Below are positions 4,609-32,515 of a DNA stretch of 45,797 nucleotides, in pieces. Under the pieces are notes generated by a model. That model saw only the letters and a program-made list of their open reading frames with translations. It was not told the DNA's origin and ran no database searches. Where the stretch lies: IMG/VR virus record IMGVR_UViG_3300030102_006349, positions 12,885 to 58,681 of that record; one strand, written 5' to 3'. This stretch comes from a virus. The translations under genes were made by a program, and so were the position numbers. Positions within the stretch are counted from its first letter, which is position 1; the number at the start of each line of letters is the position of its first letter.

Positions 4609-5049
4609 ATGGCAATAACACAAGCAATTTGTAATTCATTTAAAAAACAGCTTTTAGAAGCTGACATGAATTTCAAACAAACTGGTGGTGATGTTTTTAA
4701 ATTAGCTCTTTACATTTCTACAGCAACTCTAAATTCAGCTACAACATCTTTCACAACTTCCGGTCAAGTTGGAAACAGCGGTCAATATACTTCTGGTGGT
4801 GGAAAATTAGTTAACGGAGCTACTTCAATGACAGCAGGTGTGGCTAGAGTAGACTTCGGTGACAGATCTTTCACTGGTGTTACACTAACTGCTAGAGGAG
4901 CAATGATTTATAATACATCATCTGATACTACTAACGCATCAGTTTGTATTTTAGATTTCGGAAGTGATAAAACAGCTACATCAGGAACTTTCACAATTCA
5001 GTTTCCAGCGCCAACATCAACAGCAGCGATTCTAAGAATCTCTGGTTAA
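4609..5049 (+). CDS. conserved phage structural protein
   Basis: 146 residues, low in charge, beginning MAITQAICNSFKKQLLEADM and continuing with Ser/Thr/Gly-rich beta segments (DVFKLALYISTATLN, GARGAM-like turns, CILDFGSDKTATSGTFTIQF). This resembles a phage structural family found beside tail-fibre genes, which I cannot name. A ribosome site, TAGGAG, lies 7 nt before the ATG. It lies between the adaptor and tail-fibre genes and is likely a neck or tail component. No catalytic motif is visible. Confidence 0.6.
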   Translation: MAITQAICNSFKKQLLEADMNFKQTGGDVFKLALYISTATLNSATTSFTTSGQVGNSGQYTSGGGKLVNGATSMTAGVARVDFGDRSFTGVTLTARGAMIYNTSSDTTNASVCILDFGSDKTATSGTFTIQFPAPTSTAAILRISG

Positions 5050-5050
5050 T

Positions 5051-5065
5051 AGGAGGTAAACTCCT
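5051..5065 (+). promoter_or_regulatory. ribosome-binding site inside a small hairpin
   Basis: AGGAG (5051-5055), a GTAAA loop and CTCCT (5061-5065) form a 5-bp perfect stem immediately before ATG 5066. The stem contains the Shine-Dalgarno sequence, so initiation could be restrained until ribosomes translating the upstream gene open it. Confidence 0.5.
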
Positions 5066-6160
5066 ATGAGTACAGGTGCATGGGGCCAGGTAACCTGGGG
5101 TTACGCTAAATGGGGTGAGTTAGGTGACGCAACTGTGTCTCCTAATAATACAAACCTATCGGCTACAGTTACTTTAGGTACCGGAACTCAAGAAGGTGAA
5201 ATAAATGATGGATGGTCCCGACAAGCTTGGGGAGCAAATGGTTGGGGTATTGCTGGCACATTAGTTACTAATAGTAATGCGCTTTCTGCAAATTTAAATT
5301 CCGTAACAGCTACTACTGAAATAAATACTGGATGGGGATCTGATACTTGGGGAACTGAGTTATGGGGATCTTCTGGATTAAGAATTCCTATTACCAACAC
5401 TAATTTATCAATGACAGCCGCTGAAGGATCAAGCGGTATAACTTTTAATGGTGATTCTAATTTAACTCTTACCGGACTACCTTTAACTTCATCTCTTAAC
5501 GATGTAGAGGCCTTTTCTCTTTTTGTAGCGACACCAACTGGATTTGAGTTAGGAATGCAGTTGTCATATGATCCTGAAATAGTATCTCCTGCATCTTTCC
5601 CTCTTACAATGTCTCAAGGTACAGCTAACCTTGATGCTAACACTATAGTAGAAGTAACCAGCACTTCTGTTGGTTATTGGGGATACAAATCTGCTTGGGG
5701 TAATTTTGCTTGGGGTAATGGTGTAACTGAAACTCTAGCGATGTCTATGCTAGAAAACTTTAGTGGAGTAGACCCAGCACCAGATGTTTCTTTAACAGGA
5801 AATGCAGTTGCCGCGGCTCTAGCTCAAACAACGAATACACTTGGTCCAAATAACTTTAACATTATAGGAGACGCTAACGCTCCAGTAACCAATGTAGCCA
5901 ACAATTTATCTATGGCTATTACTACAGGAAACGCTGAACTAGAAGCGTTAACTCCAGTAGATGTAACAGGATTCACATTAACAGGTACTTTAAGTGGTCC
6001 TGCTGAAGTAATAGGAGATGCAAACACATTCCCAACAGGATTTGCATTGACAAATAGCTTAGGAACAGCTACAAATGTGTTGATTTGGAACGAAGTTAAT
6101 ACTGGCACAGCACCAGTTGATCCTCCAGGTTGGCAGGAAGTTTCAACCAATGCTGCATAA
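5066..6160 (+). CDS. tryptophan-triad repeat tail protein
   Basis: 364 residues, acidic and beta-rich. It has four W-rich modules with near-equal spacing: W6/W11/W16, W50/W55/W60, W90/W95/W100 and W205/W211/W216, for example WGQVTWGYAKWG. Between them are Asn/Thr/Leu-rich stretches (NTNLSMTAAEGSS, NSNALSANLNSV) like phage fibre repeats. The same W-x4-W-x4-W module recurs once in the nozzle protein encoded from 13121, so the two may touch or share a fold. Its ribosome site is in a hairpin. It is likely a tail or fibre component; no enzyme motif is seen. Confidence 0.6.
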   Translation: MSTGAWGQVTWGYAKWGELGDATVSPNNTNLSATVTLGTGTQEGEINDGWSRQAWGANGWGIAGTLVTNSNALSANLNSVTATTEINTGWGSDTWGTELWGSSGLRIPITNTNLSMTAAEGSSGITFNGDSNLTLTGLPLTSSLNDVEAFSLFVATPTGFELGMQLSYDPEIVSPASFPLTMSQGTANLDANTIVEVTSTSVGYWGYKSAWGNFAWGNGVTETLAMSMLENFSGVDPAPDVSLTGNAVAAALAQTTNTLGPNNFNIIGDANAPVTNVANNLSMAITTGNAELEALTPVDVTGFTLTGTLSGPAEVIGDANTFPTGFALTNSLGTATNVLIWNEVNTGTAPVDPPGWQEVSTNAA

Positions 6161-6196
6161 TTATAGTTTGACACTATAACAAAATTTTAATAAATT
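6161..6196 (+). promoter_or_regulatory. hairpin plus possible promoter before the tail-fibre gene
   Basis: TTATAGT (6161-6167) and ACTATAA (6173-6179) form a 7-bp stem right after the upstream stop. A TTGACA (6168-6173) overlaps the loop, with TAAATT (6191-6196) after 17 nt, giving a moderate sigma70-like promoter directed at ATG 6219. AT-rich sequence makes a chance match possible. Confidence 0.4.
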
Positions 6197-6218
6197 AAGT
6201 AAATCGGAGAATAAAAAT

Positions 6219-7289
6219 ATGGCGAATTCAACATCAGCTAGTTTAAAACTTACAGTACAAGCTACTGGAGAAAATTCAGGAACTTGGGGACAAATTACCA
6301 ATACCAACTTATTAATTTTAGAACAAGCAATTGGTGGATATGATGCCGTTGCTATTACTACTGGAGCCACTTTAACTTTTACAAATGGTGCCTTATCAAA
6401 TGGTAAAAACCAAGTATTAAAATTAACAGGCACAATCGGCGGAGCCGTTAACGTAACTATTCCAGATGGAATTGAAAAAACTTTCGTAGTTGACAATGCC
6501 ACTACTGGATCTCACACGGTAACTTTTAAAACTTCTTCAGGAACTGGAGTAACTTGGGCAGCAGCCGATAAAGGTACTAAAATGATTTATTCTGATGGTA
6601 CTAACGTTGTCGACACAGCATTCACAGATTTATCATCTGATTATTCACCACAACTTTCAGCAGACTTAGATACAAATAGTCAAAATATTATTATTGATGA
6701 CGCTCACAATATTCAAGACGAAAACGGAAATGAACAATTAGTTTTCCAAACAACCGGTTCAGCTGTAAATGAATTTGAATTAACAAACGCAGCTACAGGT
6801 GGTGCACCTCAAATTGCAGTCACTGGCGGTGATAGTAATATTGATATGAACATAACTCCAAAAGGAGTGGGTAGAGCAACTTTTAATGGTCAAGGTAAAA
6901 TTCAAAGTGTTGCAGAAAAAGTTACAAACAACGCTTCTGCAGCTACCGGCACAGTAAACTATGATGTGCTTACTCAAGCAGTTTTAAACGATACTTCAAA
7001 CGCTGCAGGTAACTGGACTCTAAATATTAGAGGTGATGGATCTAATTCTTTAGATTCAATCATGGACACAGGTGAGTCAATAACTATCGCTCATTTGGTA
7101 CCACAAGGCGGTTCTGCTTATTACAATAGTGCAGTAACTATTGACGGCAGTGCAGTCACACCAGAGTGGCAAGGTGGATCAGCACCTGACGCCGGTAATG
7201 CAAGTTCGATTGATGTATACAGCTATACAATTATTAAAACTGGTTCTGCTACGTTTACAACGTTAGCTTCTCAGACTCAGTTTGCATAA
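6219..7289 (+). CDS. tail fibre-like protein
   Basis: 356 residues. The opening, SLKLTVQATGENSGTWGQIT then NLLILEQAIGGYDAV, is the start of a marine-phage tail-fibre family known to me from pelagic phages and cyanophages. The body is Thr/Asn/Gly-rich with beta repeats (TGATLTFTNGALSNG, TGSHTVTFKTSSGTG) and a C-terminal half that could be a receptor-facing or chaperone-like domain. CGGAG lies upstream of the start. It likely contacts the host surface or bridges to the glycine-rich protein encoded next. Confidence 0.7.
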   Translation: MANSTSASLKLTVQATGENSGTWGQITNTNLLILEQAIGGYDAVAITTGATLTFTNGALSNGKNQVLKLTGTIGGAVNVTIPDGIEKTFVVDNATTGSHTVTFKTSSGTGVTWAAADKGTKMIYSDGTNVVDTAFTDLSSDYSPQLSADLDTNSQNIIIDDAHNIQDENGNEQLVFQTTGSAVNEFELTNAATGGAPQIAVTGGDSNIDMNITPKGVGRATFNGQGKIQSVAEKVTNNASAATGTVNYDVLTQAVLNDTSNAAGNWTLNIRGDGSNSLDSIMDTGESITIAHLVPQGGSAYYNSAVTIDGSAVTPEWQGGSAPDAGNASSIDVYSYTIIKTGSATFTTLASQTQFA

Positions 7290-7308
7290 TAGGAGGAAAT
7301 AAAAAACA

Positions 7309-8097
7309 ATGCCTTTACTTTCAACCAGAGCCGCAGGTTCAGCAAGAGGATTTGGATTTGCCGGTGGTGGTGAAAACTTTCTTTTAGCTACAGGCGGAAC
7401 TATTACGCAAGACGGAGCTTTTCAAGTACACACATTTACTACAGGCGGAACTTTTGAAGTTACACAATTAGCAACTGATCCAGCGAATGATGTAATAGAA
7501 TATCTTTTAGCTGCAGGTGGCGGTGGAACAGGAAATGATGGAAACCAATCCATGCTCGGCGGAGGAGGCGGAGGCGGTTGTAAAACTGAATCTGGACAAC
7601 CCGTTGCTGTACAAACTTATCCTGTATCCGTAGGATCAGGTGGCGGAAGAGGTTCAAATGGAGGCTCAACATCGTTCTATGGTCAAACAGGAAATGGCGG
7701 TGGAAGAGGAGGAAATCAAAACCAACAAGGAATTCCAGGAGGATCTGGAGGCGGAGGCGGTCAAGGAAAACCTAATCCAGGTGGCGGAAGTCAATCTGGT
7801 TTTGGAAATCCAGGCGGTCAAGCTGGAGATGCTTGGAGTTGGGCAGGCGGCGGAGGCGGCAAAAATGGTGCCGGCGGTAGCTCACCCAAAGTTGGAGGCG
7901 CATCATTACCATCATCAATTGATGGACAATCAAAAAACTTTTCTGGCGGTGGAGGCGGAGCAAGTCCAGGACCGACAGGACCACAAGCAACAGGTGACTT
8001 TGGAACAGGCGGAAGTAGAGCAGGATCAGCTGCTTCACCAGGATTTGTAGGTCAAGGAGGAGTTGTTATCGTAAGATATCAATATCAGAAGGCATAA
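7309..8097 (+). CDS. glycine-rich tail-tip/adhesin-like protein
   Basis: 262 residues, of which the middle 180 or so are dominated by glycine runs and proline-containing loops (AAGGGGTGND, GGSGGGGGQGKPNPGGG, GPTGPQATGDFG). N- and C-terminal ends are ordinary beta sequence (FQVHTFTTGGTFEV; GVVIVRYQYQKA). This matches polyglycine-rich receptor-binding domains of phage tips, where packed polyglycine helices present variable loops. A strong GGAGG site precedes the ATG. Proline and glycine content makes it a plausible substrate for the adjacent prolyl-hydroxylase-like genes, though that is speculation. Confidence 0.7.
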   Translation: MPLLSTRAAGSARGFGFAGGGENFLLATGGTITQDGAFQVHTFTTGGTFEVTQLATDPANDVIEYLLAAGGGGTGNDGNQSMLGGGGGGGCKTESGQPVAVQTYPVSVGSGGGRGSNGGSTSFYGQTGNGGGRGGNQNQQGIPGGSGGGGGQGKPNPGGGSQSGFGNPGGQAGDAWSWAGGGGGKNGAGGSSPKVGGASLPSSIDGQSKNFSGGGGGASPGPTGPQATGDFGTGGSRAGSAASPGFVGQGGVVIVRYQYQKA

Positions 8098-8099
8098 TC

Positions 8100-8519
8100 A
8101 TGGCTACAGTTTTTTTTACACAACTTGATGATAATAACGTAGTTGTTAATTGCACACGTTGGGATGATTCTATTTTAGGAACTCCACAATCAGAACAAAA
8201 TGGTAAAGATTTTTTAGCAAACGAATTTGGTGTTTCAGCAGATAAATTTGTTCAAACATTTACAGATAGAACAAGAAAACAATTTGCATCAGTTGGTTGT
8301 ACTTACGATGCAGAAAACGATGTTTTTATAACTCCAAAACCTTTTGCAAGTTGGGTTTTAAATTCTGAATTTGAATGGGAAGCACCTTTTCCAGATCCAG
8401 CACCTGAAGGTTTTCAATGCAGATGGAATGAAGGCCAACAAACATACGAGTGTCAAAAAATTTCTGATGAGACAGAATATATGTGGAATAAAACCACAAA
8501 CGAAATGGATCCCATTTAG
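8100..8519 (+). CDS. conserved hypothetical tail-associated protein
   Basis: 139 residues starting 2 nt after the glycine-rich gene, so probably translationally coupled. It has an even composition with aromatic patches (FVQTFTDRTRKQFASVGC, FASWVLNSEFEWEAPFPDP) and a C-terminal WNEGQQTYEC segment. Proteins of this type often follow fibre genes in marine phages and may be an assembly factor or small fibre subunit. No motif allows a firm function. Confidence 0.55.
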   Translation: MATVFFTQLDDNNVVVNCTRWDDSILGTPQSEQNGKDFLANEFGVSADKFVQTFTDRTRKQFASVGCTYDAENDVFITPKPFASWVLNSEFEWEAPFPDPAPEGFQCRWNEGQQTYECQKISDETEYMWNKTTNEMDPI

Positions 8520-8521
8520 TC

Positions 8522-8549
8522 TTTACTTTCTACCCTAAACATCTATAAT
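8522..8549 (+). promoter_or_regulatory. sigma70-like promoter for the oxygenase island
   Basis: TTTACT (8522-8527), 16 nt and a perfect TATAAT (8544-8549). Transcription would begin close to ATG 8558, giving a very short or absent leader. It separates the tail genes from the oxygenase genes. Confidence 0.5.
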
Positions 8550-8557
8550 TAAGTACC

Positions 8558-9178
8558 ATGCAATTGAAGTATAATTTTTGGTATTTTGAGAAAGCATTGA
8601 AAGATACCTTTATAAAAAGATTAATTAAAGAAGGAATTAAAAAGAATCCTGGCTTAGGAGTTATTAACAAATATCAAGGTAAAAAAATAACTGCTAAGAT
8701 GGAAAAGGATTTAAAGAAGACAAGAGATTCTAATGTTGCTTTTCTTAATAACAAATGGATATACAATACAATTGATCAATTTTTTAAAGTAGCAAACCAC
8801 AATGCAGGTTGGAATTTTAATTATAATTTTTATGAATCTGTTCAATTTACAGTTTATGCAAAAGGACAACATTATGATTGGCATGCAGATTCCAATCCAA
8901 TACCTTATCCACAAAATATAGATAAAAATTTTGCTGGCAAAATCAGAAAGCTATCTGCTTCTATATCTCTTAACGATGCAAGTGAATATGAAGGTGGAGA
9001 TTTTTTATTAGACTTAAGCACACCATTAGAAAAAAATAAAGTAATTAAAATTAAAGAATTAAGAAAAAAAGGAAGTATGGTTATTTTTCCATCACATCAA
9101 TACCATAAAGTTACGCCTGTAACAAAAGGAGTAAGATACTCTTTAGTAATTTGGGGTTTAGGTTATCCGTGGCAATAA
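8558..9178 (+). CDS. Fe(II)/2-oxoglutarate-dependent oxygenase (PKHD/prolyl-hydroxylase type)
   Basis: 206 residues with a double-stranded beta-helix oxygenase core. The iron-binding triad is visible: H109 and D111 in YDWHADSN and distal H183 in SHQYHKVTP, with R193 (GVRYSLVIW) positioned to hold 2-oxoglutarate. The segment ISLNDASEYEGGDFLL is typical of PKHD-type hydroxylases. Such enzymes hydroxylate amino-acid side chains, nucleobases or small molecules; the substrate here is unknown. First gene of the island behind its own promoter, overlapping the next oxygenase by 10 nt. Confidence 0.9.
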   Translation: MQLKYNFWYFEKALKDTFIKRLIKEGIKKNPGLGVINKYQGKKITAKMEKDLKKTRDSNVAFLNNKWIYNTIDQFFKVANHNAGWNFNYNFYESVQFTVYAKGQHYDWHADSNPIPYPQNIDKNFAGKIRKLSASISLNDASEYEGGDFLLDLSTPLEKNKVIKIKELRKKGSMVIFPSHQYHKVTPVTKGVRYSLVIWGLGYPWQ

Positions 9179-9762
9179 AATATAAAATACTTAAAAACGC
9201 TATATCAAAAGATCTAGCCGAGTTTTGTTTTAACTATTTTAATATAAAAAGACAAGTTGTTTACTACTTGTGGGATAAAAATTTTATTCCTAACAATGTA
9301 ACTATGTTTGGTACTTTATCCGATGCACAAGTACCTAATACATATTCACATTACGCCGATTTAGTAATGGAAACTTTATTACTTAAATGTCAAAAAAAAC
9401 TTGAAAGATTATTAAAATTCAAATTACAACCTGCATATTCTTATGCAAGAATATATAAAAAAGGTGACGTTTTAAAAAAACACAAAGATAGATTTAGTTG
9501 TGAATTATCTGTAACACTTAATCTAGGTGGTGAGATTTGGCCAATATATCTTAAAGACAAAAAAGAAATAAAAGTTAATTTACAACCAGGAGACATGTTG
9601 TTTTATTATGGTTGTGAATTAGAACATTGGAGAAATAAATTTAAAGGAAATAATTGTACTCAAGTTTTCCTACACTATAATAGATTGACAAAAAGTAATA
9701 AAAATAATATATATGATGGCAGACCAATGATAGGATTACCATCAGAGTTTAGAAATTTATGA
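9169..9762 (+). CDS. Fe(II)/2-oxoglutarate-dependent oxygenase
   Basis: 197 residues from GTG 9169; a TTG at 9151 would add six residues but overlaps more of the previous gene, so GTG is preferred. The iron triad is H105 and D107 (KKHKDRFSCELSVTLNLGG) and H153 (CELEHWRNKF), with an intervening QPGDMLFYYG turn. The usual arginine 2-oxoglutarate anchor is not obvious; Q165 in NNCTQVFLHY occupies that place, so co-substrate binding may be atypical. It overlaps the preceding oxygenase by 10 nt and the next gene by 4 nt, forming one operon. Confidence 0.85.
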   Translation: MAIKYKILKNAISKDLAEFCFNYFNIKRQVVYYLWDKNFIPNNVTMFGTLSDAQVPNTYSHYADLVMETLLLKCQKKLERLLKFKLQPAYSYARIYKKGDVLKKHKDRFSCELSVTLNLGGEIWPIYLKDKKEIKVNLQPGDMLFYYGCELEHWRNKFKGNNCTQVFLHYNRLTKSNKNNIYDGRPMIGLPSEFRNL

Positions 9763-10232
9763 AAGTAAAATTATTAGAGCCTAAATTACAGAGATCGCCT
9801 TTTTCTTTTTTCTTTAGATTTTTTGTTGGCACAAAAAAATTAAAACTTAAATCAACTAAAATAGATCAAAATTTTGAATTTGAGTTAAGACAAGCTTTTA
9901 CTCAGTATTGTGCAGCTATAAAAATAGTTCCAGAAACTTGTTATTACGAAATAACAACTAAGCCTACACTATCTGATATTAATCGATGGTCATATTTAAA
10001 AGGAGTAATAAATTTAGATAATACAGGATACACTGTTTTTGAAACACCTTTTCCTTATGAAGGTAAAGTCTGTTCAGTTAAAGTTAAAAATAAAAAAAAT
10101 CAAATAATTATTGTTGAAGAAAATTTAAATACAAAACCAAAAGGTAAAAATATTTACTTTAATTTGTTTTTTCATAAAAATCCTAAACATAAAAAAGGTA
10201 AATTGTTAATTGATTTAACTTCCGGTAACTAG
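9759..10232 (+). CDS. hypothetical protein within the oxygenase operon
   Basis: 157 residues, very basic at both ends, beginning MKVKLLEPKLQRSPFSFFF. It has no oxygenase triad and no motif I recognise. A region of mixed strands and turns (TKPTLSDINRWSYLKGVINL, YTVFETPFPYEGKVCSV) ends in a Lys-rich tail. It overlaps the oxygenase before it by 4 nt (ATGA) and the oxygenase after it by 1 nt, so it is translated with them and may be a partner or a substrate carrier. That role is a guess from location. Confidence 0.6.
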   Translation: MKVKLLEPKLQRSPFSFFFRFFVGTKKLKLKSTKIDQNFEFELRQAFTQYCAAIKIVPETCYYEITTKPTLSDINRWSYLKGVINLDNTGYTVFETPFPYEGKVCSVKVKNKKNQIIIVEENLNTKPKGKNIYFNLFFHKNPKHKKGKLLIDLTSGN

Positions 10233-10768
10233 TGTCTTCACTCTTTGAAATTCCTTTTCTACATCTAAGTTGTTCTGATTGGAAACAAAAAAAGAAAAAA
10301 TTAAATAAACTTACAAAAAATCAAGAACTAGCTAGAGGTCAACATAATATATTTTATAGTTCAAAAAATATACCCTTTTTAGATAATGAAAATTTTATAG
10401 ATAACTTTACTAAACTATTTCAAGAAGAGTTTCAAAAGTTTGGTCAAAAATATAATTATAAAAAACTTCATTTAAAAGATGTATGGACTGTAATTTATAA
10501 TGAGCATGATTATCAAACACCTCATCAACATGGACCATTAGGATGGTCTGGAATACTTTATTGTGACTATGATCCCAAACAACCATCTACGGTTTTTGTA
10601 CAACCTTGGCATGATTTAAAAACAGGTTTTACTGGATTAAAAACTTTAGACATTAAAGAAGGAGACATGGTATTTTTTCCTAGTTTCATTATGCATTTTT
10701 GTCCTAGTAATAATATGAAGAAAAAAAGAAAAATTATTTCTTGGGATTTAACTGCAGAATCTATTTAA
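10232..10768 (+). CDS. 2OG-Fe(II) oxygenase superfamily protein (TIGR02466-like)
   Basis: 178 residues from GTG 10232, overlapping the previous stop by one base. The core has TPHQHGPLGWSGILYCDYDP (H98 and H100) followed by KEGDMVFFPSFIMHFCPSN (H155), the pattern of the small phage and marine-bacterial 2OG oxygenase family with an H-x-H rather than H-x-D. A basic MKKKRKIIS segment lies where the family has its arginine. It ends in an 8-nt convergent overlap with the - strand oxygenase. Confidence 0.8.
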   Translation: MSSLFEIPFLHLSCSDWKQKKKKLNKLTKNQELARGQHNIFYSSKNIPFLDNENFIDNFTKLFQEEFQKFGQKYNYKKLHLKDVWTVIYNEHDYQTPHQHGPLGWSGILYCDYDPKQPSTVFVQPWHDLKTGFTGLKTLDIKEGDMVFFPSFIMHFCPSNNMKKKRKIISWDLTAESI

Positions 10769-11276
10769 ACGTATATACTAAAACTACTCTTCTTCCTTCT
10801 TTAGGTGAAGCTCCTATATGCCAACACTTAGAAAAACTTACGGCTCTAAATTTTTTAGGATTAATTATATGAGCAATAGTTTTTTTATCCTTTTTAAATA
10901 GTATAGTTTCACCACCTTTGTTTGTGGTTAAATATATAAGTAAGTGTTTATAAGATGTAGCATGATCTGTGTGTATTGCTGATTTATTTTTTTGATTAAA
11001 ATTAGAATTAATGGAACATCTTAATACCTTTTTATATTTAATATTATGTTTTTTACAAAATTTATTAAGTAAAGCTAAACAGAACTCACTAACATAAGAA
11101 ACAGATTCACCACCTAATTCAACCCGTCTAACTACACAATGAGAGTAGAACCAATAATTGTCTCCTTTGTTTGCTTCTTTGTTGTAATACCAAGGAAAAT
11201 TATTAGAAAGAATATTATCGTTTATGTAAGCTATATCTTTTTTACTAAGAAGATTATCGTCTGTAATTATATTCAT
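10761..11276 (-). CDS. Fe(II)/2-oxoglutarate-dependent oxygenase (P4H-like)
   Basis: 171 residues. The triad is H102 and D104 (IHTDHATSYKHLLIYL) and H153 (KCWHIGASP), with R162/R163 (EGRRVVLVYTF) as the probable 2-oxoglutarate anchor; GGETILF lies between, as in prolyl-4-hydroxylase-like enzymes. Last gene of a three-gene - strand operon (halogenase, DUF6445-like, oxygenase), directly abutting its upstream neighbour with one shared base. Substrate unknown. Confidence 0.88.
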   Translation of the reverse strand: MNIITDDNLLSKKDIAYINDNILSNNFPWYYNKEANKGDNYWFYSHCVVRRVELGGESVSYVSEFCLALLNKFCKKHNIKYKKVLRCSINSNFNQKNKSAIHTDHATSYKHLLIYLTTNKGGETILFKKDKKTIAHIINPKKFRAVSFSKCWHIGASPKEGRRVVLVYTFK

Positions 11277-11953
11277 TAAAAAAATCTTCTTACATTTGGA
11301 ACAGGAGCTCTATTATATCCTTTGATATCTTTAAAGAATGTAATTAATGTAAGACGATCTTCTTTATTCTCTGGGTCATAAAAATTTTCTACACCATGAT
11401 ATTGATAGCTATCAAATATTAAAAGCCTATTATAAATAGAGTCCACTTGTAAGGTTTTTTCATATCCTCTGTTATTTCCATCTCTAGCCTTTTTATATCG
11501 AGCATCATATTTTTTATCGGAGCCATAGTATTCTTGTTTAATAGTATTATTATTTACGTGATTTGGATCTTGAAACGGAAAGAAACCTTGTTCTCTTCTA
11601 TAAAAAGATGTGCCACAATTTTTATGTTTTGACATATAAACAATTGCAGTAAACTCATAATCATTATCGTTGTGAATCCAACCCATACCTTCATTAGGAT
11701 TTGGTTTTATTGCTTGAAACGATTGGTATGCATTAAATTCTATTTTTTGATCATGTGGTTGATGTTGAAACATTGCAGCAGCTATTTTGTTAGTGCTCCA
11801 ATTAAAAAAGTCGAGTCTTGATTCATGGAGAGGTTTGGTTCTTACTCCAGGATACAAATTATAATTATCGGGTTTAGGTAATTCTAAACCTATTTTTCTT
11901 ACTTCATCAGGATCAGTAAAAAAATTATCTATAATTATAGTTGGATATATCAT
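11276..11953 (-). CDS. DUF6445-like protein, probable oxygenase-fold partner of the halogenase
   Basis: 225 residues. IIIDNFFTDPDEVRKIG opens the protein, and MGWIHNDNDYEFTAIVYMS followed by LLIFDSYQYHGVENFYD and DRLTLITFF gives H94, D96, H186 and R200 in the order of an Fe(II)/2-oxoglutarate site. I recall DUF6445 as a family found beside flavin-dependent halogenases; the match is from memory. It overlaps the halogenase by 29 nt in another frame, so the two are co-translated. Proposed role: oxidation or positioning of the same substrate as the halogenase. Confidence 0.75.
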   Translation of the reverse strand: MIYPTIIIDNFFTDPDEVRKIGLELPKPDNYNLYPGVRTKPLHESRLDFFNWSTNKIAAAMFQHQPHDQKIEFNAYQSFQAIKPNPNEGMGWIHNDNDYEFTAIVYMSKHKNCGTSFYRREQGFFPFQDPNHVNNNTIKQEYYGSDKKYDARYKKARDGNNRGYEKTLQVDSIYNRLLIFDSYQYHGVENFYDPENKEDRLTLITFFKDIKGYNRAPVPNVRRFF

Positions 11954-13073
11954 TCTTTTTAGTTACCCCGTCATGCCACAATTTTACATTCCAGGTTTCC
12001 CATTGAGCCAAATCAATATCACTATGCGTAATACTTCGCAAGTATGATTGTTTTTGGTTTTTCATGTTTTTAATTATACCTTTAATTTCTTGGTCCTCAT
12101 TATCTTTTGCAAGTTTTGTTGCATGTTTCCAAAAAGGAGTGTTATAGGCAGAACCATGCATATAATGATATAGAATAAAGTTTTGTATTCTGTTAATATA
12201 TTGTCTTATTTTTTTTACTGAATCATTAAAAGTACAGCTTCTATCTACTATAGCATCCCAAATAAATTGACACCATTTTTGATATGTTGCAACAGCAGTT
12301 GCCTCTAAAGGTTCTAGGAAAAAGAATCTATTACCATTTAATATAACTCGATCATCAATCAAAGGATTTTTAGCTATGTATTGTTTGTAAGGAAAGTGTG
12401 CATTTGTTTTTTCTAAGTTAAAAAGTTCTTTAAAATTATTTTCTGCTTTTTCTACAGAGGTTACTTTATCATTAAAATTATACCCAAGTGAGATTCTATC
12501 TTCTAAAGGTATATAAAAACACCAACCATCTTTTGTAGCTATTGTTCGAGTCCAGGTAACATCATCTTGTTTTACAGGCAAAGATCCTAAGACTACATGA
12601 TTAAGTGGATTAATCAATTTATCATAACCTTTAAATGATTTAGGTGTGCCTCTACAATCAATAATATAGTCTGCATCCACTTCATCGTACTCAACAACGT
12701 TCTCATCCTTTTCAATGAAATTTACTTTTAAATTATCTAATATAAATCTTTGTAATTCTGATGGATTAAAATGTATAGAATAACTACCTATTGGGAAATG
12801 ATGATAGATAAGTTTATTTTTCTTACCCCAGTTTTCATACATGATCCCATCTTTTCGAGTGAATGAAAATTTAGATGCTATGTCAGAACCAAGAGCTTGC
12901 CATAACAATCTAGGTAAAGTTAAATTAGAAGCTTGTCCTACTGGAACTGGAGATATTTTACTATCATGAATAACTTCTATCTCTAAAGGCGTATCTAAAA
13001 ACTGACCCCAGTAATGAAAATGTAAAGCTGATACACAGCCTGCATTACCCTTTCCGATGATACTAATTTTCAT
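11925..13073 (-). CDS. flavin-dependent halogenase (tryptophan-halogenase family)
   Basis: 382 residues from ATG 13073, which places the FAD-binding GKGNAG (7-12) at the usual distance from the start; an ATG at 13091 would add six residues. Catalytic residues known from PrnA appear conserved: a lysine (K74 in FTRKDGIMYENW) and a glutamate (E257 in LEPLEATAVA). The Trp-halogenase WxWxIP motif is altered to GWCFYIP (183-189). It is shorter than bacterial tryptophan halogenases of about 540 residues. Family enzymes use reduced FAD, oxygen and halide to halogenate aromatic substrates; no flavin reductase gene is seen here, so a host reductase would be needed. Marine viral halogenases of this family are known, so the family is established in phages but this arrangement is notable. 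Confidence 0.88.
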   Translation of the reverse strand: MKISIIGKGNAGCVSALHFHYWGQFLDTPLEIEVIHDSKISPVPVGQASNLTLPRLLWQALGSDIASKFSFTRKDGIMYENWGKKNKLIYHHFPIGSYSIHFNPSELQRFILDNLKVNFIEKDENVVEYDEVDADYIIDCRGTPKSFKGYDKLINPLNHVVLGSLPVKQDDVTWTRTIATKDGWCFYIPLEDRISLGYNFNDKVTSVEKAENNFKELFNLEKTNAHFPYKQYIAKNPLIDDRVILNGNRFFFLEPLEATAVATYQKWCQFIWDAIVDRSCTFNDSVKKIRQYINRIQNFILYHYMHGSAYNTPFWKHATKLAKDNEDQEIKGIIKNMKNQKQSYLRSITHSDIDLAQWETWNVKLWHDGVTKKNDISNYNYR

Positions 13074-13120
13074 ATTTTTTCGCTCTTTCATTAATTTTAT
13101 ATTTAATATATAACACTGTT

Positions 13121-15037
13121 ATGGCATTAAAAAAAGTAGATTTTGCAGCTGGTTTTAACAAACAAGGCGTACCTTCGGCCCTACCTGGAAGATGGGTAGA
13201 TGGAGATTTTGTACGTTTTAGATATAAATCTCCTGAAAAAATAGGAGGTTGGGAACAACTAACCGTATCTAATGAAACCTTACCAGGAGTAGCTAGAGCT
13301 CAACTAGCCTTTACTAGTTTAAAAGGCGAAAAATATACGGCCATTGGAACATCTCAAGGTTTATTTTTATACTATGGAGAATCTTTTTATGACATTACTC
13401 CACTAGATACAGCTATCAGTGGAGCAACTTTTGACACTAATTTAAATTCTACCTCTGTTACTGTAAACAGAACTTCACATAATTTAACTTTAGGAAGATA
13501 TGTAACTTTTACGTCGGTTACTCCTCCCCCAACTTCAGGCTATGTGGCGGATGATTTTGAAATAGGAGCTTTTGAAATTGTTCAAATAAACGATGCTAAT
13601 AGTTTTAACATTGTAATGAGAACTAATGCGGCTGCAGATACCACTGGAGCAGGCGCTGCAACTATTAACCCTTATGAAGAAGTTGGTCCAACGTTTCAAA
13701 CAAAAGGCTATGGATGGGGCACATACCTATGGAATGATTCTACCTGGGGAACAGAACGATCAACTAGTAATGTAATTTTAGATCCAGGTAATTGGTCTTT
13801 AGATAATTTTGGAGAAGTATTAGTCGCTACAATATTTAATGGTAAAACTTTTACGTGGAACGCTGGTGCTAGTAATCCTAGAACTATACGAGCTTCGACT
13901 TCAACATCAGGTTTTTCTACTTCTGCAAATCCGACAGCTTCAAGATTTACCTTAGTATCCGATCGAGATAGACATCTCTTTCATTTTGGAACTGAAACAA
14001 ATATAGGAACACCCAACACTCAAGATCCTATGTTTGTGAGATTTTCTAATCAAGAAGATTTAAATACTTACGCACCAACAGCAACTAATACAGCGGGTAC
14101 ATTTAGACTGGATACAGGAAACAAAATTACTTCTGTTTTACAAGGTAAAGATTATGTATTTGTTTTAACAGATTTGGCTGCTTATGTTATTCAATTCGTA
14201 GGACCACCATTTACTTTTTCTGTTAGACAAGTCGGAACTAATTGTGGATGCATTAGTCAACATGCAGCAAGTTATGTTAATGGAGCAATCTATTGGATGT
14301 CTAATGAAGGTGGATTTTTTATGTACGATGGTACCGTTAAAGCGTTGCCGTGTTTAGTTGAAGATTTTGTGTTTACTGTTCAAAATGGAAATTTAGGTCT
14401 TAACTATTCGGCTTCATCAACTGTTTATTCTGAACCAAATTCTTTATATACTGAGGTCAGTTGGTTTTATCCTAAAGCTGGATCTGAACAAATTGATAGA
14501 TGTGTAACGTATAACTATCAAGAAAACGTATGGACTACTTCATCTTTAGCTCGTACCACTTATGTGGATCAAGGTGTTTTTGAAAAACCTTATGCAACAG
14601 AATATAACACTACGGCTACTCCAGTGTGTTCTATGATATCGGGAGTTACTAACAGATATGGCGCTAGTATTTATTATGCGCATGAAGTAGGAAATGATCA
14701 GGTCAATAGTTCTGGGACTACGGCTATTCCTGCTTTTATAAGATCTGGAGATTTTGATATTGAAGATGGTGAACTATTTATGTCTATGAGAAGGTTTATG
14801 CCTGACTATAAATTTTTAGTAGGCAACTCTAAAGTAACTTTATTCATATCAGATTATCCTTCGGATAACCAAACAGGTTCACCTCTTGGACCTTTTACAA
14901 TAACCAGCACTACTGATAAAGTAGATACCAGAGCGAGAGGAAGACTACTATCTTTGAAGATAGAAAATGATGCTGCAGGTGAGACTTGGCGTTATGGTAG
15001 TTTTAGAATGGATGCTCAACCAGATGGAAGAAGATAA
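13121..15037 (+). CDS. P22 gp10-like nozzle / DNA stabilisation tail protein
   Basis: 638 residues, opening KVDFAAGFNKQGVPSAL, GDFVRFRYKSPEKIGGWEQL, the usual start of gp10-type tail nozzle proteins. The body has beta-propeller-like repeats with aromatic turns (YWMSNEGGFFMYDGTV; FLVGNSKVTLFIS). Residues 199/204/209 form one W-x4-W-x4-W triad (GWGTYLWNDSTWG), as in the 364-residue tail protein upstream. The gene starts 47 nt after the divergent halogenase. It likely forms the tail tube with the gp4-like protein. Confidence 0.78.
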   Translation: MALKKVDFAAGFNKQGVPSALPGRWVDGDFVRFRYKSPEKIGGWEQLTVSNETLPGVARAQLAFTSLKGEKYTAIGTSQGLFLYYGESFYDITPLDTAISGATFDTNLNSTSVTVNRTSHNLTLGRYVTFTSVTPPPTSGYVADDFEIGAFEIVQINDANSFNIVMRTNAAADTTGAGAATINPYEEVGPTFQTKGYGWGTYLWNDSTWGTERSTSNVILDPGNWSLDNFGEVLVATIFNGKTFTWNAGASNPRTIRASTSTSGFSTSANPTASRFTLVSDRDRHLFHFGTETNIGTPNTQDPMFVRFSNQEDLNTYAPTATNTAGTFRLDTGNKITSVLQGKDYVFVLTDLAAYVIQFVGPPFTFSVRQVGTNCGCISQHAASYVNGAIYWMSNEGGFFMYDGTVKALPCLVEDFVFTVQNGNLGLNYSASSTVYSEPNSLYTEVSWFYPKAGSEQIDRCVTYNYQENVWTTSSLARTTYVDQGVFEKPYATEYNTTATPVCSMISGVTNRYGASIYYAHEVGNDQVNSSGTTAIPAFIRSGDFDIEDGELFMSMRRFMPDYKFLVGNSKVTLFISDYPSDNQTGSPLGPFTITSTTDKVDTRARGRLLSLKIENDAAGETWRYGSFRMDAQPDGRR

Positions 15038-15219
15038 TGACTAAAAGATTAAATATTGAAAAAGCGATTAAAAAACCAGGTTCTTTAAGAAAAGCTTTAA
15101 AGATTAAAAAAGGAGAAAAGATACCTTTAGATAAATTAAATAAGGCAGCTAAAGCAAAAGGCAAGTTAGGCCAAAGAGCTAGGTTTGCTAAAACACTTAG
15201 AAAAATAAATAGAGCATAA
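15037..15219 (+). CDS. small basic phage protein
   Basis: 60 residues, strongly Lys/Arg-rich (RLNIEKAIKKPGSLRKALKI, KLGQRARFAKTLRKI) and predicted all helical. It begins in the stop codon of the nozzle gene and is followed directly by the next gene (shared base at 15219). Small proteins of this composition are widespread in phages; the charge suggests nucleic-acid contact. No named family. Confidence 0.6.
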   Translation: MTKRLNIEKAIKKPGSLRKALKIKKGEKIPLDKLNKAAKAKGKLGQRARFAKTLRKINRA

Positions 15220-15383
15220 TGGCAAAATTAACTAATTATATACCTGAACCAGCACAGCAATATGACGTAGAAAATCAAAGACAAATTATTGAGTCTATGA
15301 CAACTATGAAACAACAACTTAATTTTGCTTTTCAAGAAGATTTAAAAAACGAACAAGACGCATTTAATTATTTTTTATCATGA
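15219..15383 (+). CDS. small hypothetical protein
   Basis: 54 residues, starting at ATG 15219 where the previous gene stops. Helical and Gln/Asn-rich (YDVENQRQIIESMTTMKQQL, DLKNEQDAFNYF). It overlaps the next gene by 4 nt (ATGA). Two tight junctions support a real gene in the tail operon. Function unknown; possible structural or assembly peptide. Confidence 0.55.
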   Translation: MAKLTNYIPEPAQQYDVENQRQIIESMTTMKQQLNFAFQEDLKNEQDAFNYFLS

Positions 15384-15721
15384 CAATAAAATACAAAAAC
15401 GTCAGCAAAATATTAGATAGTACAGCTATGACTACTGTTTTAACTATTGCCACTTCTGCGGTTGCAATTGTAAAATCTGTATACGTGTCCAATAACAGCA
15501 CAAGTAATGTTTTAGTAAATTGTGACCTAAGAGATTCTTCAGCAAGCAGTGACATAGAATTTTTTAGAAAGGATGTACCTGGAACTTCTACAATAAATGC
15601 CACAGAACAAGGCTTGAATTTAGAAGAAGGAGATGCTATAAAAGCGCAAGCAGAGACAGCTAACCATTTAGAAGTTGTTGTCAGTTATGCTTTAATAAAC
15701 AGAGAGAATGAAAACGGATAA
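15380..15721 (+). CDS. small phage structural protein
   Basis: 113 residues, beta-rich (ILDSTAMTTVLTIATSAVAI, VYVSNNSTSNVLVNCDL) and almost symmetric hydrophobic/polar alternation, resembling small head-tail joining or fibre-base proteins. It overlaps the genes on both sides by 4 and 14 nt. No catalytic motif. Likely a virion component of the nozzle region. Confidence 0.6.
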   Translation: MTIKYKNVSKILDSTAMTTVLTIATSAVAIVKSVYVSNNSTSNVLVNCDLRDSSASSDIEFFRKDVPGTSTINATEQGLNLEEGDAIKAQAETANHLEVVVSYALINRENENG

Positions 15722-15899
15722 TATAGTAAAAATAGATTGTACAACTATAACAACTTATAGAAATACAAAGACTGGTAAAACTTCGAATGAAAAATTAGAA
15801 GGTCCAGATATTGTAACAGACGTTACAGTTCAGGTATCTCCTAAAGGTTTAGATTTAATGCAGAAAGTTATGAATGAAAATAAGAAACCAAAATCCTAA
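15708..15899 (+). CDS. small hypothetical protein
   Basis: 63 residues overlapping the preceding gene by 14 nt and the glycosyltransferase by 26 nt. A beta-rich first half (IVKIDCTTITTYRNTKTGKT) and a helical, basic end (SPKGLDLMQKVMNENKKPKS). No family recognised. The tight overlaps indicate a real, co-translated gene in the tail/glycosyltransferase operon. Confidence 0.5.
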   Translation: MKTDNIVKIDCTTITTYRNTKTGKTSNEKLEGPDIVTDVTVQVSPKGLDLMQKVMNENKKPKS

Positions 15900-16821
15900 A
15901 GGCGGCACAGAACTACAACTTGAATTTTTAAATAAGTATGTAGATAAAAGTTTACTTGATAAAGTGCAGATATGCACAAGCGTTCCTGGTAAAGTACCTA
16001 TAGATCCAAACAAAGTAAATATTCTTTGGCAAAAAAATTCTTACGATCAACCTAATTTATATCCATGGTTTAAAAATAAAGCTAATCATAACATATATGA
16101 TTGGTACGTTTTTAATTCACATTGGAATCATGAAAAGTTTAGAATGATGTTTGGTTTACCCGACCACAAATGTATTGTTATAAAAAATGGTATTGAGAAA
16201 ATAGAAAAAGCTCAACCCTATCAAGAAGGAAAACCTATAAAAATTATTCATCAAAATACTCCTTGGAGAGGACTCTCTATATTATTAGGTGCAATGCAAT
16301 TAGTTAAAAATCCTTTAATTACTCTAGATGTATATTCTTCATGTGAAGTATATGGAAAAAAATTTTATGAAGCTAACGATCACAACTACCAAGCTTTGTA
16401 TGACCAAGCACATCAATTACCTAATGTTAATTACATCGGATATAGACCCAACGAATACATTAGAGAGCATATAAAAGATTACAACATGTATGTTTATCCG
16501 AGTGTCTTTGAAGAGACTTCATGTATTTCTTTATTAGAATGTATGGCGGGAGGATTATATTGTATTACTACTAACTATGGGGCGTTGTTTGAAACAGGAG
16601 CAGAGTTTCCTATGTATATACCTTACGATAAAGACTACAAAAGATTAGCCGAAAAGTTTGCTTATGGTATAGAGGCTGCTGCAAAAACTTTACATGAACC
16701 CACTATTCAAAATCATTTAACCACACAATCAGGTTACGCACATTTATATTATGGATGGCCAAAACAAGCATCATCATGGTCTAGATTTTTAGAAGGAGCT
16801 GTTAATGCAAAAAAGTTATAA
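15874..16821 (+). CDS. glycosyltransferase, GT-B fold (family 4-like)
   Basis: 315 residues. GGTEL (10-14) is the N-terminal loop of GT-B enzymes and the C-terminal EETSCISLLECMAGG carries the E-x7-E nucleotide-sugar site. Also NPVIK-like YVFNSHWNHEKFRMMFGLP and NVNYIGYRPNEYIREHIKDY. It would transfer a sugar to a glycan, protein or modified base in the cytoplasm. Short for the family, with a compact N-terminal domain. It overlaps the next glycosyltransferase by 17 nt, so the two likely act in sequence. Substrate unknown. Confidence 0.85.
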   Translation: MKIRNQNPKGGTELQLEFLNKYVDKSLLDKVQICTSVPGKVPIDPNKVNILWQKNSYDQPNLYPWFKNKANHNIYDWYVFNSHWNHEKFRMMFGLPDHKCIVIKNGIEKIEKAQPYQEGKPIKIIHQNTPWRGLSILLGAMQLVKNPLITLDVYSSCEVYGKKFYEANDHNYQALYDQAHQLPNVNYIGYRPNEYIREHIKDYNMYVYPSVFEETSCISLLECMAGGLYCITTNYGALFETGAEFPMYIPYDKDYKRLAEKFAYGIEAAAKTLHEPTIQNHLTTQSGYAHLYYGWPKQASSWSRFLEGAVNAKKL

Positions 16822-17764
16822 GGCCTCGAGCCAAAACAATGAGCCCATTTGGTTTAACAAAGACTCTTCGACTAAAACCGTAGTCCCTAATAAAGATACT
16901 TATCAAACTATTAAAACTAACAAAGTTGAAGGAGAAGTTACCGAAATAAATCTAGGTACATCCCCCCATAAAATAATGGTATGCACACCCTGTCATAGTG
17001 ATGTTAGTATGCATTATTGTCAGGCTGTTTTAAAATTTCAACAAGAGTGCTGGCAAAAGAAAATTCAGGTCAGTTTTACTTTACTTAAATCATCTTTAGT
17101 TACGCAAGGTAGAAATTTATGTGTAGCTGAAATGTTGAATCATGAAGATAATTATACACATTTACTATTTATAGACTCTGATATTGACTTCAATGCATCA
17201 ACAATATTTAAAATGTTAGATTTAGATAAAGATATTATTTCTTGTCCTTATCCTATGAAGATGTTGAGTTGGGATAAAATGTGGAGAAGATGGCAAGAAA
17301 AAGAAGATGCTGTAGAAACAGCAGATGATTTAGCTAAATCAGGATTTACTTTTCCTGTTAAAATAGAGGACCCAAATAACATTGAAAGTAAGCAAGGATT
17401 AATAGAGTTATCTCATGCCCCAACCGGGTGTATGTTAATTAAAAGAAATGTCTTGGAAACAATGATTAAAGAGTACCCAGAATTAGAGATCTTTCAACCC
17501 ACTATAATTAATGGTGTAGAAGAAAAGAAAACTAATATGTTTAACTTATTTGATACTCTTCACGACCCTAAAACCAAACGTTATTTTGGAGAGGATTTTG
17601 GATTTTGTCAAAGATGGAAAGACATAGGTGGTAAAGTTTATGCCTACATAAATGACTATATAACGCATGTAGGAGAGTATCAGTATTGCGGAAGGTTTAG
17701 AGATGATCTTTGGCAAGGAAGTAGGCCCGTCAAATCTGTTGACGCGCCTAAAAAAATCAAATAA
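16805..17764 (+). CDS. glycosyltransferase, GT-A type with DxD motif
   Basis: 319 residues. After an Asn/Thr-rich N-terminal 50 residues, a GT-A nucleotide-binding domain begins (KIMVCTPCHSDVSMHYCQA) with the metal-binding DSD at 124-126 (LLFIDSDIDF). Further motifs include APTGCMLIKRNVLE and FGEDFGFCQRW, a usual acceptor-side acidic pair. The low-complexity start may be a linker. It overlaps the GT-B gene by 17 nt and closes the nozzle/glycosyl operon. Possible targets are virion proteins, host surface or modified bases. Confidence 0.8.
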   Translation: MQKSYKASSQNNEPIWFNKDSSTKTVVPNKDTYQTIKTNKVEGEVTEINLGTSPHKIMVCTPCHSDVSMHYCQAVLKFQQECWQKKIQVSFTLLKSSLVTQGRNLCVAEMLNHEDNYTHLLFIDSDIDFNASTIFKMLDLDKDIISCPYPMKMLSWDKMWRRWQEKEDAVETADDLAKSGFTFPVKIEDPNNIESKQGLIELSHAPTGCMLIKRNVLETMIKEYPELEIFQPTIINGVEEKKTNMFNLFDTLHDPKTKRYFGEDFGFCQRWKDIGGKVYAYINDYITHVGEYQYCGRFRDDLWQGSRPVKSVDAPKKIK

Positions 17765-30892: not shown

Positions 30893-32515
30893 ATGGAACA
30901 TAAATTTATAGACATATTTACAGGTCTTAAAAGAGACTATGGTTATGCAGATGTAAACTCTGCGTACAAAGATCCTGCTACAGGCAAATTAAAATTAAAA
31001 TATGGTTGGGCAGCAAAAGAATTATTAGAGTCCGATTATCTAGACCATCTCACAGGTAAAAAATCTATTGGTATTCAACCTTGTAATGATGAAGGACTCG
31101 CTAAGTTTGGAGCAATTGATATAGATTCAGACGAGTATGATAACTTTGACTTAAGAAAGTATTTAGAAATTATTGATAAAAAAAATATTCCAGTAGTACC
31201 AGTTAAATCTAAAAGTGGTGGATTACACATTTATGTATTCTTTAAAGAACCAGTCAAAGCAAGTTTTGTAAGAAACTTTTTAGATAAATTATTATTTACA
31301 TTTGATTTAAAAGCATCAACAGAAATATTTCCAAAACAAACACAACTTGGTGTAGGCTCAGATCAAAAACCAATTAATGGTAACTTTATTAATCTACCTT
31401 ACTATAATCGTAATGAAAGAGTTGGTGTAAATTTAGATGGTACTGAGTTTACTTTTGAACAATTTATAAAAGTCGTCGAGGCTAACACAAAAACCAAAGA
31501 AGAACTAGAAGAATTTGCAGATGAATTAATTAGACTCGAACTTACTGGAGGTGCGGATGAATTTGTGGATGGTCCTGTGTGTCTTCAAAGATTATCAAAA
31601 TCTAAATTAGATGATTACAGAGACAGATTTATTTATAATTATATGGTCTTCGCTAAAAAGAAATACCCTGACAATTGGGAAGAAAAACTTTTAGAAGGTG
31701 CAAGAAATTATATTGTTTATGATAATATTTGGGGAGATGAAAAAGTAAAACAAAAAATTAAAGCTTATAAAAAAGATACTGCAGGTCATACTTGTTCTGA
31801 GGAACCCATCAATAGTATGTGTGTTAAATCAGAATGTTTAAAAAGAAAATATGGGGTAGCCTCAGATAAGGTAAAAAGATTTCCTACATTGTCTGCATTA
31901 ATCAAAATAGATTATTCACCAGACCCAGAGTTTAGATTTACGGTGCATTACAATGACAAAGTCGAAGGTGAAACTACACAACAAATAATCGCGAGAGATA
32001 TAAATTACATCATGGACCAAGAAAAACTTAGACGTTTAATTGGAGCACATACACCTATTCCACCTCCACGAATCAAAGGTGATGATATGCAAACTATTTT
32101 AGATACTTTATGGCAAGGAATGAAAACAGAAAAAGCTCCTCCAGGTACATCACCAAAAGAAGTATTACACAAACATTTAGAAGATTACATTCATGGTGTT
32201 CCAGCAGTTAGTGATGCTGCATTTAGGAGTGGTAGCACATTAATTGATACAGATGGTTATGCTTATTTTGTATTTGATCCATTTTATAATTTTTTAAAGA
32301 ACAAAGAATGGAAAGCTAAAATAGATAGAACCGGACAAATGTTAATGGATTTTTTTGAAGCTGAACTTAGACACGCTAAAAGATATCCTAAAAAAGCAAC
32401 AGAAAAAAAATCCAACAATCCGGTTAGATGTGTAAAAATTTCTATGAAATATTTTGACAAAGAAGAAAATGAAATAGAAATTTTACCAATGAAGAGTAAA
32501 AAAGATATTCTTTAA
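30893..32515 (+). CDS. archaeo-eukaryotic-type (AEP) primase-like protein
   Basis: 540 residues. The N-terminal half has the AEP active-site pattern: GAIDIDSD (73-80), KSKSGGLHIYVFF with H112, and GNFINLPYYN, in order. A zinc-like cluster (HTCSEE, CVKSEC) lies about two thirds along, near residues 298-314, and the C-terminal part is helical and unassigned. Such proteins make RNA or DNA primers and can be polymerase-like. It starts 13 nt after a hairpin. It is directly coupled (shared base) to the UvrD-like helicase gene. No bacterial DnaG or T7 gp4-type primase appears in the window. Confidence 0.78.
   Translation: MEHKFIDIFTGLKRDYGYADVNSAYKDPATGKLKLKYGWAAKELLESDYLDHLTGKKSIGIQPCNDEGLAKFGAIDIDSDEYDNFDLRKYLEIIDKKNIPVVPVKSKSGGLHIYVFFKEPVKASFVRNFLDKLLFTFDLKASTEIFPKQTQLGVGSDQKPINGNFINLPYYNRNERVGVNLDGTEFTFEQFIKVVEANTKTKEELEEFADELIRLELTGGADEFVDGPVCLQRLSKSKLDDYRDRFIYNYMVFAKKKYPDNWEEKLLEGARNYIVYDNIWGDEKVKQKIKAYKKDTAGHTCSEEPINSMCVKSECLKRKYGVASDKVKRFPTLSALIKIDYSPDPEFRFTVHYNDKVEGETTQQIIARDINYIMDQEKLRRLIGAHTPIPPPRIKGDDMQTILDTLWQGMKTEKAPPGTSPKEVLHKHLEDYIHGVPAVSDAAFRSGSTLIDTDGYAYFVFDPFYNFLKNKEWKAKIDRTGQMLMDFFEAELRHAKRYPKKATEKKSNNPVRCVKISMKYFDKEENEIEILPMKSKKDIL

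Follow-up and report, generated by a model that had tools for sequence, protein, structure and literature searches.

A pelagiphage cassette of predicted oxygenases and a halogenase that is exchanged together with the tail tip

The window analysed here is a stretch of 45,797 nucleotides of viral DNA (positions 12885-58681 of the 58,681-base IMG/VR record IMGVR_UViG_3300030102_006349; all coordinates are window positions), and it carries a packed cassette of seven open reading frames (ORFs), A to G, between the tail-fibre tip gene GLY with its small neighbour TFA and a tail structural gene that we call NOZ. The cassette encodes predicted 2-oxoglutarate (2OG)-Fe(II)-type oxygenases, a short flavin-dependent halogenase and a protein of no assigned function. 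Tip and cassette move between phages as one block. From this observed linkage we infer the substrate, and with about evenly balanced confidence we regard the cassette as a set of tailoring enzymes that belong to the receptor-binding tail tip. The NOZ protein shares 69% identity with its counterpart in Pelagibacter phage HTVC027P and 52% with the one in HTVC023P, and the phage is therefore an HTVC023P-type pelagiphage, a virus of SAR11.

Exchange of the tail tip and the cassette

The relative L110, whose NOZ is 91% identical at the amino acid level, matches the DNA of the window at 5000-7464 and at 13119-15469, thus on both sides of the exchanged block (Table 1), while the block itself is unmatched save for weak patches in A and B. 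The reverse is found in L030 and L032, whose DNA matches the block at 74-83% but whose NOZ proteins are just 54% and 38% identical, respectively. Together with L031 these relatives have the block in common with the window (tip 69-85%, cassette genes 64-94%) at NOZ identities of 38-54%. The left end of the exchange is at about 7464 within the tip gene. The N-terminal part of this otherwise variable tip, about 50 codons common to the backbone relatives, stays with the backbone, whereas the remaining tip, TFA and the cassette are exchanged.

The divergence of the A-, B- and halogenase-type genes tracks that of TFA (partial r 0.63, 0.70, and 0.74; permutation p 0.0005, with NOZ as the sole account taken of shared ancestry). 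Against NOZ the partial r of the same genes is about 0, although the halogenase gene adjoins NOZ in the window. The control genes tail6219 and GT4, a glycosyltransferase gene downstream of NOZ, track NOZ. In addition, tip type and cassette strand are coupled: TFA-type tips are paired with plus or two-armed cassettes in 42 of 43 loci, and the other tip type, which was recognised by ORF sizes only in loci that are fragments, goes with minus cassettes in 24 of 24. On the NOZ tree, tip type and cassette strand agree in nine of nine independent pairs (p 0.004).

Content of the site in relatives

Two sets of loci were compared, one selected by NOZ alone (50 informative loci) and one selected by the short halogenase (90 loci). 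In the first set, 2OG-type genes are located between tail fibre and NOZ in 46 of the 50 loci, with a mean of 3.2 per locus. In the second they are nearby in 72 of the 90 loci; 40 of the 90 contain NOZ as well, and 39 of those have 2OG-type genes nearby. Oxygenases are thus the normal content of the site, and an earlier sequence-only reading of this DNA, which had described the island as inserted into the tail genes, was mistaken in this respect. Within the site, gene order, strand, and content differ strongly between relatives. Not every cassette has the halogenase, the DUF6445 gene (F), or gene C, and the pool also includes full-length halogenases (c35), a carbamoyltransferase (c40), a cupin (c37), and additional 2OG genes. 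All-plus and all-minus cassettes are commoner than the two-armed layout of the window. The NOZ-chosen loci hold a full-length halogenase in two cases, a carbamoyltransferase in four, and a short halogenase in none. On the NOZ tree, no fewer than 13 changes are needed to explain where the halogenase is present. Some cassettes encode two short halogenases, divergent and on opposite strands (L036, L038, L040, L043), and in L068, L071, and L074 the full-length halogenase is directly followed by the short one. The sequence-only reading had also inferred a two-armed modification system and had proposed to check whether its genes move together. The cassette and the tail tip do move as one, but the content within the cassette is shuffled; modification is well supported by the enzyme families and their recurrence in several phage groups, whereas two arms are one layout of several.

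Such variation could also mean that the genes are unrelated passengers, morons without a common task that are gathered by a recombination hotspot next to the fast-swapping tip gene. The strong differences in order, strand, and content, the many changes of the halogenase, and the AT-richness of the cassette (GC content of 26-29% compared to 34-44% in the surroundings) are all in agreement with this. However, the 46 of 50 loci represent nearly always one enzyme class, the catalytic residues of the cassette enzymes are conserved, and podo- and myoviruses carry the same enzyme set at their fibre genes, so that mere passengers seem improbable.

In the latter respect, members of the cassette families come after tail-fibre or fibre-assembly genes in syn9, S-RIM44, Mosig, and P-RSM4, and adjoin GLY and TFA homologues in the pelagimyophage HTVC008M and in HTVC033P. 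HTVC023P has cassette-family genes at the tail-fibre site, too. In syn9, the gene of gp42, a protein that matches the chain of the cyanophage halogenase VirX1 across all 530 residues, directly follows the tail-fibre and fibre-assembly genes and is itself followed by a series of 2OG, DUF6445, E-type, and B-type genes. The S-CREM1 set is preceded by a collagen-like gene, and the halogenase of P-SSM2 is neighboured by fibre-assembly genes. As a separate observation, genes for a putative haem oxygenase and a phycocyanobilin:ferredoxin oxidoreductase end the tail-linked oxygenase cassette of the SAR11 phage Mosig (L191, 9969-11205).

Genes and enzyme families of the cassette

Table 1. Features of the tail-tip region, in window coordinates
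Feature	Positions	Strand	Description	Evidence
GLY	7309..8097	+	Gly-rich tail-fibre tip protein	Pfam Gly_rich_2 PF21722 2e-10; phrog_2295 and phrog_863 'tail fiber assembly'
Exchanged block	7465..13118	.	Rest of tip gene, TFA, and cassette	DNA comparison with L110, L032, L030
TFA	8100..8519	+	Small tip-adjoining protein of no assigned function	phrog_7759 6e-24
A	8558..9178	+	2OG-Fe(II) oxygenase, PKHD/prolyl-hydroxylase-like	PF13640 2OG-FeII_Oxy_3 1e-15; phrog_61 1e-33
B	9151..9762	+	Predicted double-stranded β-helix (DSBH) prolyl-4-hydroxylase-like protein	phrog_2954 label 'ferrochelatase'; HxD...H residues; predicted fold
C	9759..10232	+	Protein of no assigned function	No family match
D	10232..10768	+	2OG-FeII_Oxy_5 / phrog_81 oxygenase	PF13759 2e-9; phrog_81 5e-33
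E	10761..11276	-	2OG-Fe(II) oxygenase	phrog_274 9e-31 (label 'DNA endonuclease V'); PF13640 weak, 0.002
F	11276..11953	-	DUF6445 protein, probable 2OG-type oxygenase	PF20043 3e-15
G	11925..13091	-	Short flavin-dependent halogenase	PF04820 Trp_halogenase 2e-30
NOZ	13121..15037		Tail structural gene	phrog_3287

The ORFs of the island are present where the sequence-only reading had placed them, next to the tail genes and before its "nozzle" gene, our NOZ, which is without a Pfam match but matches a virion structural protein family and has homologues in pelagiphages and among proteins named 'stabilization protein' and 'needle head'. As that reading had said, every neighbour pair overlaps (in order by about 10-28, 4, 1, 8 (the convergent pair D/E), 1, and 29 nucleotides), and these overlaps suggest that the cassette genes may be co-translated. 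It had counted six genes where there are seven. Its families, three 2OG oxygenases and one unrecognised gene on the plus strand and a halogenase, a DUF6445 protein, and an oxygenase on the minus strand, were all recovered, in the case of B by residues and fold. Its total of four oxygenases has to be raised to five, because F also keeps the HxD...H...R residues.

A, B, D, E, and F are thus predicted 2OG-Fe(II)-type oxygenases, D by its clear family match to 2OG-FeII_Oxy_5. A (H109, D111, H183, and R193) and E (H102, D104, H153, and R163) conserve the HxD...H triad together with the downstream arginine, and in F the corresponding residues H94, D96, H186, and R200 are invariant among 12-14 members. 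The relatives of D (the OGd1 family) keep H107-x-H109, H173, and R184, which is HxH...H...R in place of HxD. In profile searches A is matched by PiuC PKHD hydroxylases (4e-9) and by a viral collagen prolyl hydroxylase (2e-4), and E by the NCBIfam model of a YhhC-type peptide oxygenase (3e-4, below the cut-off of the model). B and C do not have Pfam matches above chance. B is nevertheless supported as an oxygenase, because all or almost all members share H111, D113, and H159, and the predicted fold is a DSBH: the AlphaFold2 model (pLDDT 93.3) has the prolyl-4-hydroxylase of P. putida as top Foldseek matches (E 1e-8, TM 0.60). B does not have the arginine at +10, whose part may be taken by R161 or another residue. 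Homologues of C were found only in the closest relatives L030, L031, and L032.

The name ferrochelatase for B was rejected, since none of 12 members has a ferrochelatase Pfam match at E 1 and the listed fold matches are 2OG oxygenases. More generally, the PHROG labels 'ferrochelatase' (2954, 3531), 'DNA endonuclease V' (274), and 'minor coat protein' (1644), the last of which is carried by F, cover 2OG-type oxygenases and are present in many phage records.

Both A and B are similar to enzymes with protein substrates, namely prolyl hydroxylases, one of which has been solved with EF-Tu, and the viral collagen prolyl hydroxylase. The profile of B also has a marginal PDB match to a Tet-like dioxygenase (E 0.05), and 2OG enzymes and carbamoyltransferases are known to participate in the cytosine hypermodification of phages. 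It could therefore be imagined that the oxygenases hydroxylate bases, which are then further decorated. However, the nearest fold to B is that of prolyl-4-hydroxylase, and the cassette is located in the tail region and travels with the tip. The record is also without a Tet_JBP match, which argues only weakly as no control matched either. DNA or nucleotide modification is thus very improbable. A role in anti-phage defence was rejected as well, for which PADLOC gave only generic 2OG models and weak matches.

Sequence profile, motifs, and predicted fold all place G among the flavin-dependent halogenases. The relatives of G begin at an internal ATG at 13073, the start that the sequence-only reading had chosen, and the protein has a length of about 382-388 residues. 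All 40 relatives match PF04820, and in these 40 sequences G13, G15, and G18 of the GxGxxG dinucleotide-binding motif are invariant. Also invariant is the catalytic pair K80 and E263, the counterparts of K79 and E346 of PrnA, of which K80 aligns with the lysine of KLGIRFENW in PyrH and E263 with FxEPLES. The WxWxIP region reads WxFxIP, with a phenylalanine for the second tryptophan (W190, F192, and I194 are invariant and P195 nearly so), in a pattern GW-C-F-Y-IP among the relatives. The AlphaFold2 model of G (pLDDT 89.8) has PyrH, PrnA, and the lanthipeptide halogenase MibH as best solved folds, with E-values down to 3e-22. G is shorter than the solved members, as about 55 residues are gone after the substrate-side HxF motif, and this shortening may open the active site. 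A flavin reductase gene was not identified in the cassette. In a search of 84,980 species genomes the short halogenase was phage-only apart from five marine contigs of metagenome-assembled genomes (MAGs), L101-L105, which are binned as Chloroflexi, Poribacteria, and Euryarchaeota. A cellular source was therefore rejected: no such cassette and no tail synteny was seen in these five contigs, which are probably viral sequence in the bins.

Possible substrates of the enzymes

The sequence-only reading had left open virion proteins, host metabolites, or DNA as targets. The linkage speaks for a target connected with the receptor-binding tip, and it lends no support to DNA. Regarding substrate, timing, and effect on binding, we infer the following course for tip-tailoring enzymes. 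Late in infection the oxygenases would hydroxylate side chains of freshly synthesised tip or fibre proteins, and the halogenase, with reduced flavin from the host, would add bromine, chlorine, or iodine to exposed aromatic side chains. Both would take place before or during folding and assembly. The altered surface chemistry could tune the binding to the host receptor or the stability of the Gly-rich tip in seawater, and each tip type would therefore need its own enzymes. The Gly-rich tip has no match among solved structures, and a collagen repeat was not identified in it. As an extension, and only tentatively, it might be that marine podo- and myophages in general carry exchangeable modules of tip and oxidative enzymes, that host specificity is set by hydroxylation and halogenation in addition to sequence, and that the natural substrate of VirX1 is a phage fibre protein, which would then be the first halogenated virion protein.

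Several results weigh against tailoring of the tip. Exchange of near neighbours can also be due to physical linkage within one recombination block. The presence of the halogenase is not associated with tip type on the NOZ tree, where informative pairs are few, and phages with a halogenase do not consistently have more tryptophan, tyrosine, and histidine in their tail proteins. A second site of the short halogenase in this phage group, located upstream of the tail cluster, is off the tail fibres: there the gene has no or almost no companions and is flanked by small genes and an endolysin-like gene (L062, L065, L066, L076, L088, L094). The short halogenases of Sf-CH8, S-SSM7, and S-MS29 are not beside fibres either, and those of the cyanophages Sf-CH8 and S-MS29 adjoin the major head protein or late-transcription genes. 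In ACG-2014f the B-type gene is away from the tail genes. A promoter search for the minus arm gave fewer sites than in shuffled sequence, and none stands out. Finally, the tip linkage could reflect receptor masking instead of tip modification.

Receptor masking is the strongest rival. The enzymes would alter the receptor that is read by the tip, for example lipopolysaccharide (LPS) or surface-glycan precursors, whereby the progeny would be spared loss on debris and other phages would be shut out. The cassette would therefore also have to match the tip, and the same linkage is predicted. Carbamoyltransferases and cupins recur in the cassette, two putative glycosyltransferase genes are located downstream, and such a role has been proposed for the LPS-type glycosyltransferases of pelagimyophage host-recognition clusters (PMC7029224). 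However, the GT4 gene of the window tracks NOZ and not the cassette, and the cassette proteins appear soluble, with no hydrophobic segment typical of membrane proteins in A-G. In addition, halogenases of G's family prefer electron-rich aromatics, which glycans lack. We therefore consider modification of the host surface rather unlikely.

A small-molecule pathway, leading to a halogenated and hydroxylated metabolite derived from amino acids or sugars, has been proposed for the cluster of halogenase, carbamoyltransferase, 2OG, and cupin genes of the jumbo cyanophage S-SSM6a (Iyer et al. 2021, PMC7824862), whose families overlap with those found here (c35, c40, c37). However, the window cassette does not contain a scaffold-building enzyme, and the shuffled gene content leaves no constant core chemistry. 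A free product would also not need co-exchange with the tail tip. This explanation is thus doubtful to about the same degree as that of unrelated passengers.

Relation to known systems

The single parts of the system are known, whereas the co-exchanged unit of tip and halogenase/oxygenase genes and the relabelled ferrochelatase appear to be new. The review PMC8407142 describes the VirX1 halogenase and does not list a gene cluster for it. VirX1 (cyanophage Syn10, PDB 6QGM), which is characterised and iodinating, is of the same superfamily as G but of full length (about 530 residues), whereas G is a short form. In HTVC023P-type pelagiphages, the same phage group, the same co-located A- and B-type genes have been described and the 2OG and 'ferrochelatase' genes were read as iron/haem partners (Wittmers et al. 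2022, PMC9599517), whereas here an oxygenase fold is predicted for B and the genes are linked to the tip. Neither 'halogenase' nor 'tail fib' occurs in the main text of that paper. For the S-SSM6a cluster, secondary-metabolite or capsule decoration was proposed, and in the passage of PMC7824862 on this cluster a linkage to the tail tip is not discussed. Abundant 2OG genes and PrnA in cyanophages have been reported (PMC3037559), as has the pelagimyophage host-recognition cluster of tail fibres and accessory genes (PMC7029224). The collagen prolyl hydroxylase vCPH of PBCV-1 (PDB 5C5T) matches A by sequence and B by fold. Like L230 of mimivirus, it is a virus-encoded 2OG hydroxylase that is believed to act on fibrous proteins of the virus itself. 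L230 is a collagen lysyl hydroxylase-glucosyltransferase. Both differ from the present cassette in that they belong to eukaryotic viruses, have collagen substrates, and are without a halogenase. In the open-licence literature we found no report of hydroxylated or halogenated phage tail fibres, of a halogenase and oxygenases joined to a tail tip as a co-exchanged unit, or of a challenge to the ferrochelatase label.

Few accessory genes are as common in marine phages as those of 2OG oxygenases, which have mostly been read as metabolic, DNA-repair, or iron-related. A tie of these genes, and of the natural setting of VirX1, to tail tips provides a concrete substrate for testing. If tailoring of the tip is true, host recognition by phages of SAR11 and marine cyanobacteria would gain a chemical layer, and protein-acting halogenases would become available. 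Three database labels that mislead (ferrochelatase, endonuclease V, and minor coat protein) would also be corrected.

Other features of the window

The tail protein encoded at 5066-6160 contains 14 tryptophans in WGxxxWG repeats, which were considered as a target of the halogenase and rejected because the repeats are also present in the halogenase-free L110. Downstream of NOZ, at 15874-17764, the window encodes the GT4-type glycosyltransferase and a phrog_1574 protein with a weak Anp1 match. At 30893-32515 it encodes a protein with a TOTE-type archaeo-eukaryotic primase domain (PF22548).

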